DNA of 5,336 nt from Candidatus Nomurabacteria bacterium. Lineage in GTDB: Bacteria; Patescibacteriota; Minisyncoccia; Phycocordibacterales; UBA9973. Every line of letters starts with the position of its first letter. Position 1 is the stretch's first letter. The notes under the pieces were generated by a model. The model ran no database searches, was not told the DNA's origin, and worked only from the letters and a program-made list of their open reading frames with translations. Made by a program: the position numbers and the translations under genes. Below are positions 637 to 3,343 of this stretch, in pieces. The stretch lies in NCBI GenBank assembly GCA_021413565.1, contig JAIOQC010000068.1:1-5336 (forward strand), given 5' to 3'.

Positions 637-673
637 AATTTTTACTAACTATCTTCGTACTAACTCAAGGTTG

Positions 674-744
674 CTGCGAGACTTGGACTCGAACCAAGAT
701 AACCTCCTCCAGAGGGAGGTGTCCTACCATTAGACGATCTCGCA
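674..744 (-). tRNA. tRNA-Gln (anticodon CUG)
   Basis: The minus strand folds into a full cloverleaf. The acceptor stem is TGCGAGA/TCTCGCA, the D stem GTCT/GGAC with a 7-nt loop containing GG, the anticodon stem CCTCC/GGAGG with loop CTCTGGA, and the T stem CTTGG/CCAAG with loop TTCGAGT. The variable loop is 4 nt. Bases 34-36 are CTG (window 712-710), reading CAG, hence glutamine. The U1-A72 first pair and G73 discriminator are known glutamine identity features and agree. At 71 nt it is slightly short because of the small D loop. The 3' CCA is not encoded (the discriminator is followed by CAACC), so a CCA-adding enzyme is needed. Confidence 0.95.
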
Positions 745-804: not shown

Positions 805-833
805 TTGGAAATAACGAATATTTCTTGTATAAT
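805..833 (+). promoter_or_regulatory. Near-consensus promoter of the LOG-family gene
   Basis: TTGGAA (805-810), a 17-bp spacer and a perfect TATAAT (828-833) form a strong sigma-70-type promoter. Initiation is expected at about 840, only a few nt before the ATG at 843. The mRNA would therefore be leaderless or nearly so. The -10 box itself lies inside the longer frame that opens with TTG at 825, which rules that start out if this promoter is used. Confidence 0.75.
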
Positions 834-842
834 CAACTACAT

Positions 843-1571
843 ATGAAAGAAAATACAGGGCCTCAAAAATACAGACCAAAACAGTTAACAATTGAAGATA
901 TTAAAAACGGGTGTATCACTCTTTATGGTGAAAATCATGATGAAACTAAATTGTGCATGATTCAGGAAGAGTTTCGACAAGGTATTAGTCTAATTCAAGA
1001 TTTCACTCCATCAGTGACATTCTACGGTTCAGCAAGATTACCTGAAGATCATATTGCATATAAACAAACACATTCATTGGCTTATCGTATTGCCAAAGAA
1101 CTTGGTTACAATATTTTGTCTGGAGGAGGTTCTGGAATTATGGAAGCTGCTAATAAAGGTGGTTTTGAAGCAGGAGTAAAATCAGTAGGACTCACAATCA
1201 ATGAACAAATAACAAATCCGTATGTCACTAATGAAATTCCATTCTACTTCTTCTTTGCTAGACAAGTTGCTATGTCTTATGCAACTGAAGTAGTGATATT
1301 CTGTCCTGGTGGATTCGGAACGCTCGATGAACTATTTGAAATGCTAACTTTGCAACAAACAGGCAAATTAGATAAAATTCCAATTATCTTGTTTGGTTCA
1401 GAATTCTGGAATCCAATTCAAAACTTAATCAAAGAAGTATTGATAGATAAATATAAAACTATTAGTCCAGCGGACTTGGATTTATACACAATCACAGACG
1501 ATGAAGATTTGATTCTAAAAATCATCAGTGAGAGTAGGATGAGAGATGGTAAGACAAGCCTTGCACAATAA
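843..1571 (+). CDS. LOG-family protein (Rossmann-like nucleotide phosphoribohydrolase)
   Basis: A 242-residue member of the LOG/TIGR00730 family, formerly called lysine decarboxylase-like. Characterised members cleave nucleoside 5'-monophosphates, such as cytokinin riboside monophosphates, to base plus ribose 5-phosphate. Visible motifs: the first beta strand with Y-G-S-A-R (61-65); the glycine-rich loop S-G-G-G-S-G-I-M-E-A-A-N (93-104); and P-G-G-F-G-T-L-D-E (155-163), the family's active-site signature, with E163 and upstream R140 as probable catalytic or phosphate-binding residues. About 55 residues precede the core, typical of longer bacterial LOG proteins. The start was set to ATG 843 rather than TTG 825 because a near-consensus -10 box covers 828-833. 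The gene stands alone and converges on pyrG. Its substrate in this organism is unknown; purine/pyrimidine salvage or nucleotide clean-up is an inference. Confidence 0.9.
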   Translation: MKENTGPQKYRPKQLTIEDIKNGCITLYGENHDETKLCMIQEEFRQGISLIQDFTPSVTFYGSARLPEDHIAYKQTHSLAYRIAKELGYNILSGGGSGIMEAANKGGFEAGVKSVGLTINEQITNPYVTNEIPFYFFFARQVAMSYATEVVIFCPGGFGTLDELFEMLTLQQTGKLDKIPIILFGSEFWNPIQNLIKEVLIDKYKTISPADLDLYTITDDEDLILKIISESRMRDGKTSLAQ

Positions 1572-1666
1572 GAGGTTAAACCCCAAGGGCAAGCCCTGGA
1601 CCCGTTTGGAGTTCGCTTAGCTCACACGGGTCTGCACCAAAGGTGCGGGGTTATAAACCTCTTTTT
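1571..1666 (+). terminator. GC-rich branched RNA fold ending in a T-run (LOG terminator or small RNA)
   Basis: Starting at the last base of the LOG stop codon, the plus strand can fold into a four-way structure. The closing stem is AGAGGTT (1571-1577) with AACCTCT (1656-1662), then AACCCC (1579-1584) with GGGGTT (1647-1652), separated by a small internal loop. Three hairpins sit inside: AGGG-CAAG-CCCT (1586-1597); ACCCGT/ACGGGT (1600-1605 with 1626-1631) capped by GAGTT/AGCTC (1609-1613 with 1619-1623); and GCACC-AAA-GGTGC (1634-1646). Five Ts follow at 1662-1666. The core 1581-1650 is about 64% G+C by hand count, far above the surroundings. The T-run after a long stem suggests rho-independent termination on the plus strand. 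The three inner arms are more than a terminator needs, so a structured non-coding RNA or mobile repeat is possible. I do not recognise a named RNA family. Confidence 0.6.
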
Positions 1667-1726
1667 GCTCTCCTCGGCTCGGAAGTAAGAAAGAGTACTT
1701 TCTTACTTCGCTTGCTCTACGTCGGC
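1665..1726. repeat. 12-bp hairpin flanked by imperfect direct repeats
   Basis: GAAGTAAGAAAG (1682-1693) pairs perfectly with CTTTCTTACTTC (1698-1709) around a 4-nt AGTA loop. On either side are similar sequences in the same orientation: TTGCTCTCCTCGGC (1665-1678) and TTGCTCTACGTCGGC (1712-1726). No T-run follows on either strand, so it is not a typical terminator. The arrangement resembles a small intergenic repeat unit, but only one copy is in the window. Confidence 0.55.
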
Positions 1727-1737
1727 AATAAACTTAT

Positions 1738-1773
1738 TAAAAAATAACTACACATATGTGTAGTTATTTTTTA
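1738..1773. terminator. Bidirectional terminator between LOG and pyrG
   Basis: This is a perfect 36-bp palindrome centred between 1755 and 1756: TAACTACACAT faces ATGTGTAGTTA, flanked by six As on the left and six Ts on the right. Read from either strand it gives an 11-bp stem followed by a U-run, as expected for a shared rho-independent terminator between convergent genes. The pyrG stop codon (1766-1764) lies within it, so the last codons of pyrG form its A-rich side. Confidence 0.8.
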
Positions 1774-2366
1774 TTATTCTTAACGCAGGCTTTTATAAAT
1801 GCAGTAAACAATGGATGAGGAGACAGTGGACGAGCTTTGAATTCAGGATGAAATTGTGTGCCCAAGAAAAATGGATGTTTTGATGCTGGTAATTCGGCAA
1901 TTTCCATCAACATACCATTTGGAGATTTACCAGAAAATACTAAACCTTTCTTTTCTAGCATTTCAACATAAGCGTTGTTGACTTCATAACGATGACGATG
2001 ACGCTCAAAAATCTTGGTTGAAGAATACGCCTTCTCTGCAATACTTCCCTTTGATAGAACTGCATCATATGCACCTAAACGCATACTACCACCGAGTTTC
2101 TTTGTAGCAATTTTCTCTTTTTGGTCTTCCATAATATCAATAACCATATTCCCACCCGATGAATTAATTTCACGAGTATTGGCATCTTTTAACCCAAGAA
2201 CATTACGAGCATATTCAATAACTAAAAGTTGCATACCGTAACACAAACCAAAATATGGGATATTGTGAGTACGAGCGTATTGTATAGCAGAAATCTTGCC
2301 CTCAATACCACGAGAACCAAATCCACCTGGAACAATGACACCATCATAAACTGAAAGGTTCTTCAA
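1764..2366 (-). CDS. pyrG: CTP synthase, C-terminal glutaminase domain (part of split pyrG)
   Basis: These 200 residues are the class I glutamine amidotransferase half of CTP synthase, which hydrolyses glutamine and passes ammonia to the synthetase half. Visible: the oxyanion region V-P-G-G-F-G-x-R-G (12-20), the nucleophile C42 in G-L-C-Y-G-M-Q, M-R-L-G, the R-H-R-H-R-Y-E-V-N-N stretch, and catalytic H173 and E175 in F-H-P-E-F. The domain is therefore chemically complete from its oxyanion strand on, but lacks the first strand and helix of the fold. The only available start is TTG at 2366. The frame is open upstream to about 2408 and encodes linker-like residues (S-S-V-D-F-E-K-N-P-K-L) continuous with it, so this looks like the rear part of one disrupted gene rather than a separately evolved gene. 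It is in the -1 frame relative to the N-terminal part. Confidence 0.85.
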   Translation of the reverse strand: MKNLSVYDGVIVPGGFGSRGIEGKISAIQYARTHNIPYFGLCYGMQLLVIEYARNVLGLKDANTREINSSGGNMVIDIMEDQKEKIATKKLGGSMRLGAYDAVLSKGSIAEKAYSSTKIFERHRHRYEVNNAYVEMLEKKGLVFSGKSPNGMLMEIAELPASKHPFFLGTQFHPEFKARPLSPHPLFTAFIKACVKNNKK

Positions 2367-2411
2367 GAGTTTAGGATTCTTTTCAAAATCTACTGATGAG
2401 AAAAATACTTA
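2366..2411 (-). other. pyrG: pyrG break: internal deletion with frame change
   Basis: Reading the minus strand, the front half ends G-K-Y-F-S-H-Q and stops at TAG (2392-2390). The rear frame becomes open right after a TAA at 2411-2409 and reads V-F-F-S-S-V-D-F-E-K before the TTG. From the Y of G-K-Y to the V of V-P-G-G-F-G there are only about 25 residues if the frames are joined, against about 51 in E. coli PyrG, so at least about 26 codons are missing. The lost length must be 1 modulo 3 to explain the frame change. A run of five Ts (2405-2401) would allow a single -1 slip joining the frames, but would not restore the missing residues. Confidence 0.75.
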
Positions 2412-3343
2412 CCAATGATTGCTATGTGAACTTCTGACTTTGATGAGTGAACTGATTTCGCAAACTTTTTCCACTCAAGAGATTTGGCATTGGAAGCACC
2501 GTCGCACTTCATATCCACAACATCACAAATAATGTCACCAAGTCCTTCTTTTTCGAAATTCAAAGGAATATCATAAATACTATTAACATCAGGAGCAGAG
2601 ATGACACGCTCGGGAATAATATTACAAAACATTGAAAGTTTCTCTTTGCGTCTGTCATCTAGTGGCTGAGAACTACGGGCAATAATAATATCTGGTTGGA
2701 TACCAGAGCCATTCAGCGTCCGAACAGCGTATTGAGTTGGCTTTGTTTTCATTTCGCCAATCTTTGATGGAATTGGCAAATAAGAAACCATTACAAAAAA
2801 CACATCCTTTGGGTGTTTAATTTTCATCATACGAGCAGCTTCAAGGAAAAGCATATTTTGATACTCTCCTACTGTTCCACCAATTTCTATTACGACAACA
2901 TCAGCACGAGCATTGTCACGAGCAACTTCAATACGACGAATAACCTCAAGTGGAATGTGCGGAACAACTTCAACGCATTTACCTGCATATTCTAAATTGC
3001 GTTCTTTCTCAATAACAGTCTGATACACACGACCAGTAGTCATGTAATTGATACGGGTCAAATCAATATCCAAGAATCGCTCATAATTACCCATATCTTG
3101 ATCAGTCTCATCACCATCATCTAAGACGAACACTTCTCCGTGCTCAGTTGGGTTCATAGTACCAGCATCCAAATTGATATATGGATCAATCTTGATAGCA
3201 GTAACACGCTTACCACGGTCTTTTAGTATACGAGCAATAGAAGACGCAGCGACTCCTTTACCAACCCCAGAGATTACACCACCGACGACAAAAATATATT
3301 TACATTGAGAATCTTTTTTGAGAGTAGGTGTCTTTGTGGTCAT
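2390..3343 (-). CDS. pyrG: CTP synthase, N-terminal synthetase domain (part of split pyrG)
   Basis: These 317 residues are the ATP-dependent synthetase half of CTP synthase (UTP + ATP + NH3 to CTP), the last step of de novo CTP synthesis. Visible: the P-loop G-G-V-I-S-G-V-G-K-G (21-30), K-I-D-P-Y-I-N (51-57), E-H-G-E-V-F-V (67-73), Mg-ligand D83 in D-Q-D-M-G (E. coli D72), E-I-G-G-T-V-G-E-Y-Q-N (Mg/UTP region), K-T-K-P-T-Q and S-I-Y-D-I-P. Every expected motif is present. The frame stops seven residues after the conserved I-I-G-K-Y that begins the glutaminase domain. Full-length enzymes are usually about 530-550 residues. It starts 28 nt after ftsX with no Shine-Dalgarno. Free ammonia could in principle feed this half alone. 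Whether it is a real split gene, a pseudogene or an assembly error cannot be decided here. Confidence 0.9.
   Translation of the reverse strand: MTTKTPTLKKDSQCKYIFVVGGVISGVGKGVAASSIARILKDRGKRVTAIKIDPYINLDAGTMNPTEHGEVFVLDDGDETDQDMGNYERFLDIDLTRINYMTTGRVYQTVIEKERNLEYAGKCVEVVPHIPLEVIRRIEVARDNARADVVVIEIGGTVGEYQNMLFLEAARMMKIKHPKDVFFVMVSYLPIPSKIGEMKTKPTQYAVRTLNGSGIQPDIIIARSSQPLDDRRKEKLSMFCNIIPERVISAPDVNSIYDIPLNFEKEGLGDIICDVVDMKCDGASNAKSLEWKKFAKSVHSSKSEVHIAIIGKYFSHQ

Follow-up and report, generated by a model that had tools for sequence, protein, structure and literature searches.

Insertion sequences of the IS200/IS605 family are not known to have terminal inverted repeats or target duplications. Their transposases read subterminal hairpins together with a fixed flanking tetranucleotide, according to the accessible portion of PMC6006769, which also describes Y1 subclasses with atypical structures on their flanks. 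The accessible portion of PMC3733652 defines REP elements as palindromes of 20-40 bp with an unpaired GTAG or CGTC at one end. Among MITE-like repeats, Correia/NEMIS, RU-2/YPAL and CIR are under 200 bp, mobile and present in several copies; Correia elements occur in long and short forms with terminal inverted repeats and target duplication, and CIR consists of two arms with a linker between them, without terminal inverted repeats (PMC2229807, in its accessible portion).

Here we describe a repeat unit from Candidatus Nomurabacteria, identified in a 5,336-nt stretch of contig JAIOQC010000068.1 (the window, in assembly GCA_021413565.1). The unit has dispersed copies and a covarying fold, its two domains (D1 and D2) follow each other in the same order at most aligned places, its borders are ATAA and AATAA, and its flanks carry no detectable duplication. 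Like REP, BIME and REPIN elements with their RAYT (TnpA-REP) proteins, this is a short, non-coding, intergenic palindromic repeat with several copies per genome and single-strand hairpins; unlike REP elements, it measures about 160 bp and has a four-way junction and a second domain. It resembles IS200/IS605 ends and their non-autonomous derivatives, as the accessible text of PMC6006769 presents them, in its structured ends and its insertion beside a short fixed motif, and it agrees with that family in that no duplication was detected. Against the classical description of a MITE, it is short, non-coding and multi-copy, but we detected neither inverted repeats nor target duplication (the latter in a comparison of low power), whereas Correia elements have both; and while CIR folds into two arms, the element has a cloverleaf D1 and ATAA/AATAA borders (both comparisons with PMC2229807 as far as its accessible text goes).

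In the window, the element lies between a gene for a LOG-type protein and a convergent CTP synthase gene. The features of this region are:

673-744, minus strand: tRNA-Gln(CTG), upstream of LOG.
825-1571, plus strand: ORF of a LOG-type protein; best NCBIfam match TIGR00730, at its cut-off.
1566-1571, plus strand: left border CAATAA, read from the sequence, overlapping the LOG stop codon TAA (1569-1571); ATAA is common at copies.
1571-1664, plus strand: D1, a four-way-junction cloverleaf; 35 pairs, 32 of them changed on both sides across the family.
1571-1577 (5' arm) and 1656-1662 (3' arm), plus strand: P1, outer closing stem, from the fold; 7 of 7 pairs covary.
1579-1584 (5' arm) and 1647-1652 (3' arm), plus strand: P2, inner closing stem, from the fold; 5 of 6 pairs covary.
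1586-1597, plus strand: hairpin A, from the fold; 3 of 4 pairs covary.
1598-1633, plus strand: hairpin B with a nested stem at 1609-1623, from the fold; 7 of 8 and 5 of 5 pairs covary.
1634-1646, plus strand: hairpin C, from the fold; 5 of 5 pairs covary.
1662-1666, plus strand: TTTTT following P1, the two together possibly acting as an intrinsic terminator in their own genome; also in the plain-hairpin copies on contigs C74 and C65.
1665-1728, plus strand: D2, made of closing pairs TTGC/GCAA (1665-1668/1725-1728), a pyrimidine-rich internal loop and a hairpin at 1682-1709; 11 of 12 hairpin pairs covary.
1729-1732, plus strand: right border TAAA (AATAAA from 1727), read from the sequence; AATNA is common at copies.
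1738-1773, no strand assigned: palindromic terminator between LOG and pyrG, probably ancestral; many congeners have a palindrome at the same junction.
1764-3343, minus strand: CTP synthase gene (pyrG), convergent to LOG, in two ORFs in different frames.

The split of pyrG (ORFs 2390-3343 and 1764-2366) could be a sequencing error or a genuine break.

The LOG and pyrG genes converge in 23 of 24 genomes of the genus, and the remaining locus has no pyrG. The gap between the two genes is 196 nt in the window, versus 35 and 30 nt in two congeners (L014 and L025) where a terminator directly follows the LOG stop codon. Across the genus, gaps range from 30 to 230 nt, and two other congeners (L013, L027) have a gap as long as that of the window without its element. 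A long palindrome stands close to the LOG stop codon in many relatives, and the window retains one at 1738-1773. The element was not seen after LOG in any of 23 congener loci, and the original prediction's proposal of a 3'-UTR element of the LOG mRNA was not supported: the element is probably not an RNA dedicated to the LOG gene. It seems to have inserted at the LOG stop codon, in front of the older terminator, and its outer stem and T-run may incidentally terminate LOG transcription in the window. In two further congeners (L024, L028), a GC-rich insert with several hairpins and a CAGCAGAAA(A)TT motif sits inside the LOG terminator stem; a similar motif occurs in the extended second domain of the copies of another genome, G173 (L172, L205).

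Folding of 1565-1670 gave an outer stem (1570-1577/1656-1663), an inner stem (1579-1584/1647-1652) and three inner hairpins, in agreement with the closing stem, three inner hairpins and TTTTT first proposed for this DNA. The minimum free energy was -50.8 kcal/mol, compared with -29.6 +/- 3.7 for shuffled sequences (z -5.7; none of 200 shuffles folded as well), and with DNA parameters 1565-1735 yielded a nearly identical D1 fold on both strands (z -5.8 and -5.9). The core is G+C-rich, reaching 0.64 in 50-base windows, in line with the expected value of about 64%. The predicted limits, 1571-1666, held for the D1 fold and fell short for the repeat unit, of which they cover only the first half: the unit is about 160 bp long and runs from about 1569 to about 1732.

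The second half, D2, has a conserved pyrimidine-rich internal loop. Inspection of the element's ends (5' end AAAGGTATTAAACC, 3' end GTCGGCAA) found no terminal inverted repeats; each end pairs inside its own domain. The borders recur across copies. ATAA was present within 13 bases spanning the start of D1 in 52 of 58 copies, versus 5.4% of 2,207 random places, and on the right side 46 of 58 had an AATNA border no more than 260 nt away, versus 18.4% of random places.

The element's own genome (500 kb in 102 contigs, 84% complete) held no second cloverleaf copy in a sequence search. Searching with the 3' part retrieved C74:1083-1160 (94%) and C65:5076-5153 (92%), with identity over 1655-1735, and partial copies on C11 (E 2.8e-6) and C53 (E 0.01). 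Since these copies share the 3' half, we consider 1571-1732 a single repeat, with a long D1 in the window and a short one elsewhere. In the C74 and C65 copies, the D1 outer stem forms a plain hairpin whose letters have changed yet still pair (AGAGGT/AACCTCT and AGAAGT/AACTTCT), followed by the same second hairpin and then the tail CTCTACGTCGGCAATAAA. The copies in the window and on C74, C65 and C11 each lie where a long open frame has its stop codon; for C53 no such frame was found. Deletion between two GGTATTAAACC-like direct repeats on either side of the core probably gave rise to the short forms. An 11-base direct repeat with at most 2 mismatches brackets D1 in 34 of 59 copies (1.2 expected), the window copy having 3 mismatches, and one Treponema contig (L117) carries long and short forms together. 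Long and short forms are also described for Correia elements in the accessible part of PMC2229807.

Within the genus, the element's own genome was the sole match among 24 (E <= 0.001). A BLAST search of the family brought the count to 4 of 147 genomes (own included), through D2-like matches in three that belong to another genus. R1, a covariance model built from the single window copy of D1, found two further cloverleafs in the family, both in another Nomurabacteria genome, G033 (2 of 146 genomes). Across the order, R1, a covariance model of the sort called for by the original prediction, recovered 58 places in 24 of 397 genomes (own included) and 16 of 179 genera, with up to 9 per genome, at a per-genome threshold of E <= 0.01, at which 397 genomes should yield about 4 false ones, the E-values being rough. 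The best E-value lay below 1e-4 in 21 of the 24. One pair among the 58 places, L211 and L212, shares its left flank and represents a single duplicated segment. R2, a D2 model from 6 sequences including the window, gave 42 matches in 64 loci, and of 59 aligned D1 places, 36 had a D2 downstream in the same orientation (35 of 58 without the window). The idea of a mobile palindromic repeat, one of those first put forward, gained support from the several copies per genome, the covarying stems and the sporadic presence among genomes. At four loci of one genome (G367; L200, L201, L202, L203), D2 contains an extra nested palindromic insert (CACCACGG..GAGTACTTC..), which suggests that repeats landed inside one another. 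At two loci from different families of the order (L192, L204), the element immediately precedes one and the same gene, which from its sequence appears to be tpiA.

The D1 alignment to R1 comprised 65 matches in 63 distinct rows and left out the partial copy of G173 on contig C67. Six of the rows are reverse-strand duplicates of near-palindromic copies; these were kept for covariation and dropped for the G.T/A.C, direct-repeat, flank and border counts. Both sides changed in 32 of 35 D1 pairs (23.3 in shuffles), with 323 double-change cells against 106 shuffled and a score of 0.377 against 0.140, in an alignment fitted to the tested structure and so leaning towards it. With pairings shifted by 1-3 columns, the score was at most 0.096. 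In the D2 hairpin, 11 of 12 pairs covaried, with 69 double-change cells versus 17.8 shuffled. The closing stem of D2 changes in step in many copies (TTGGC/GCCAA, TTAGC/GCTAA, TTAAC/GTTAA, TAAAC/GTTTA), and in 8 of 34 rows the script counted only 0-3 pairs there.

Such strong covariation in both domains, with a very stable fold, would also be expected of a structured non-coding RNA, small or cis-regulatory, that was dispersed because it is useful or as a hitch-hiker. G.T pairs outnumbered A.C in D1, 77 to 51, as an RNA would have it, but this count comes from a noisy alignment that blurs it, and the strict subset (7 versus 3) holds just 5 rows and is too small. In the well-aligned D2 stem, by contrast, G.T made up 10 and A.C 14 of 463 cells, whereas 28 tRNAs from loci of the order gave 34 versus 1 with ARAGORN, which favours standard pairs. 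The wobble counts lean towards DNA, not decisively. In Rfam 15, searched at gathering and E-value thresholds, no family reached the cut-off except tRNA (674-744), and the other matches were at chance level; the same search of nine loci with copies or related repeats gave no match on the repeat. No sigma-70-like promoter was found in 1400-1571. Together with the differing neighbours and the lack of a significant strand preference described below, these observations make the RNA reading unlikely in our view, and they also speak against the small RNA of the original prediction.

The genes that adjoin the copies are unrelated and differ between copies. In 56 copies checked, the left neighbour could be compared for 54 and was on the same strand as the element in 31 and on the opposite strand in 23 (p 0.34). 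Where both neighbours were called (50 copies), 15 pairs were convergent, 24 co-directional and 11 divergent. One alternative is that the element is an intrinsic terminator of LOG in elaborated form, whose outer stem and T-run terminate and whose inner arms are decoration. This would account for the stem and TTTTT directly after the stop codon, a GC stem and T-run in the own genome being what intrinsic terminators look like. It would also suit the plain hairpin-T-run copies on C74 and C65 at the stops of long open frames and the 14 of 54 copies that start within 4 nt of the end of a left gene on the same strand. However, the probably older palindromic terminator persists in the window, the 11 copies between divergent genes sit where no terminator is needed, the G033 copies have no T-run after P1, and D2 is left unexplained. 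Three inner arms and a second domain also set the element apart from ordinary intrinsic terminators. We regard this possibility as very unlikely. Small RNA, 3'-UTR element and dedicated terminator all fit poorly.

No target duplication was detected: in 35 copies with both borders, a left flank matched its own right flank no better than a permuted one (5.43 versus 5.47 of 7, p 0.78), in a test to which uniform borders give low power. The ORFs common to 59 loci, judged by eye in the 25 largest clusters, were the element's own frames or housekeeping-like, and no transposase was recognised among these clusters. As judged from the sequences, a non-autonomous mobile repeat is likely the best-fitting description of the element.

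We then looked at enzymes that could act on such a repeat. Of 397 genomes of the order, 248 have Y1 genes, and so do 8 of 13 genomes in which the element or a related repeat is present. Within the order, Y1 genes were found in 19 of 24 element genomes compared with 229 of 373 others (one-sided p 0.06); the own genome, 84% complete, gave no Y1 match. We examined 52 Y1 loci from 50 distinct regions, a minor share of the Y1 genes in the order, and none was flanked by the element. The sole D1 there lay 3.4 kb from the Y1 gene (L260), and the sole strong D2 beside an IS200-type tnpA (L238). We rejected the latter as an autonomous copy because the hairpins at the ends of that tnpA are different ones. 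About 0.9 kb from another Y1 gene lay a weak D2 (L267, E 0.002), and three other D2 matches had E-values of 0.05 or worse. No tnpA-bearing copy with the same ends was found in the genome parts read.

An atypical REP/REPtron-like element from a RAYT (TnpA-REP) lineage, whose movement would depend on a domesticated Y1 protein and not on an IS transposase, would be in keeping with the frequency of Y1 genes in the order and with the Y1 subclasses with atypical flanking structures in the accessible text of PMC6006769. G033 has two RAYT-like Y1 genes side by side (L162, 716-2061), and in 22 of 34 copies the right strand of D2 contains CTACGTC, which is GACGTAG on the opposite strand. That tag is nevertheless away from the hairpin foot, GTAG is missing from the G033, G173, G182 and Treponema copies, and no RAYT gene was linked to the element in the loci examined. 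With a unit of about 160 bp and a misplaced tag, the element falls outside the REP definition, and we hold this origin to be improbable. In a Parcubacteria genome, GACATCnGATGTC palindromes flank a RAYT-like Y1 gene (L160, near 1200-2125) and make up a candidate REP pair of a different type.

Other candidates were set aside. HEARO RNA (RF02033) exceeded the cut-off in 0 of 13 genomes, with two weak matches that we judged unrelated on reading. An IscB recognises ATAAA (accessible part of PMC13180657); the IscB RRXRR domain likewise exceeded the cut-off in 0 of 13 genomes, with one sub-threshold match of 14.5 bits in the own genome. Integron attC sites were dismissed on reading the sequences, where the box motif is absent. 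An attC site has RYYYAAC and GTTRRRY boxes at its ends.

On balance, we favour a two-domain, non-coding repeat of about 160 bp, with several copies in some relatives, that is likely mobile and is predicted to be cut as folded single-stranded DNA by a transposase acting in trans. The element would fold as a single strand into the D1 cloverleaf and the D2 hairpin, the transposase supplied in trans would cut this folded strand, and the enzyme would be of the HUH (Y1) type. Present-day movement, the folded strand as substrate and the type of enzyme are all three points that we infer; the HUH single-strand route is proposed because the domains are folded, inverted repeats are absent, no duplication was detected and the borders are fixed.

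Beyond the order, a pattern made of hairpin C and the right arm retrieved 86 stretches from the genome collection, often on several contigs per genome, from Spirochaetaceae and Treponema, Prolixibacteraceae, Nanoarchaeota and Woesearchaeota, and also from Doudnabacteria and Parcubacteria. We read 80 of the 86, of which at least six (L084, L093, L107, L114, L128, L134) look like chance matches, and R1 E-values in these loci are non-independent, as the pattern includes hairpin C. Treponema, Bacteroidales, Nanoarchaeota and Woesearchaeota all carry similar repeats. In the groups compared, the right border is mostly AATAAA-like, and the left one is group-specific where readable (ATAAA, ATGAA, ATCAA), with no such left border seen in the Woesearchaeota group; this too is unlike target duplication. 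The outside repeats share the pattern, a likeness that we keep apart from descent from one family. Structured repeats of about 175 bp occur in the Spirochaetaceae JAISLT (L115, L140, L089), where many contigs end within a copy; these repeats probably break assemblies. BLAST matched no phage to the window element and no plasmid to a Treponema relative of the repeat, and pattern scans of viral contigs gave 0 matches. More tentatively, these repeats might form a mobile-DNA class common to ultra-small bacteria, spirochaetes and DPANN archaea. The four-way junction and internal-loop hairpin would then serve as an address label, and at an AATAAA site one strand, with neither terminal inverted repeats nor target duplication, would fold as two adjoining domains, to be cut and moved by an enzyme not yet recognised. 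This broader idea is possible but doubtful.

In the titles and abstract openings that we searched, whose coverage excludes most subscription papers, the repeat is unnamed and no such small mobile repeats are described from ultra-small bacteria; a search for three short repeat strings returned one of them, in a Caulobacter DnaA paper. The finding raises a concrete question: which enzyme moves the cloverleaf repeat? Copies of the repeat account for some of the GC-rich structured islands that resemble regulatory RNAs in otherwise AT-rich genomes, and annotators of non-coding RNAs in ultra-small bacterial genomes could misread copies as RNAs. With its two covarying domains and fixed borders, the cloverleaf repeat is a clear, searchable family.
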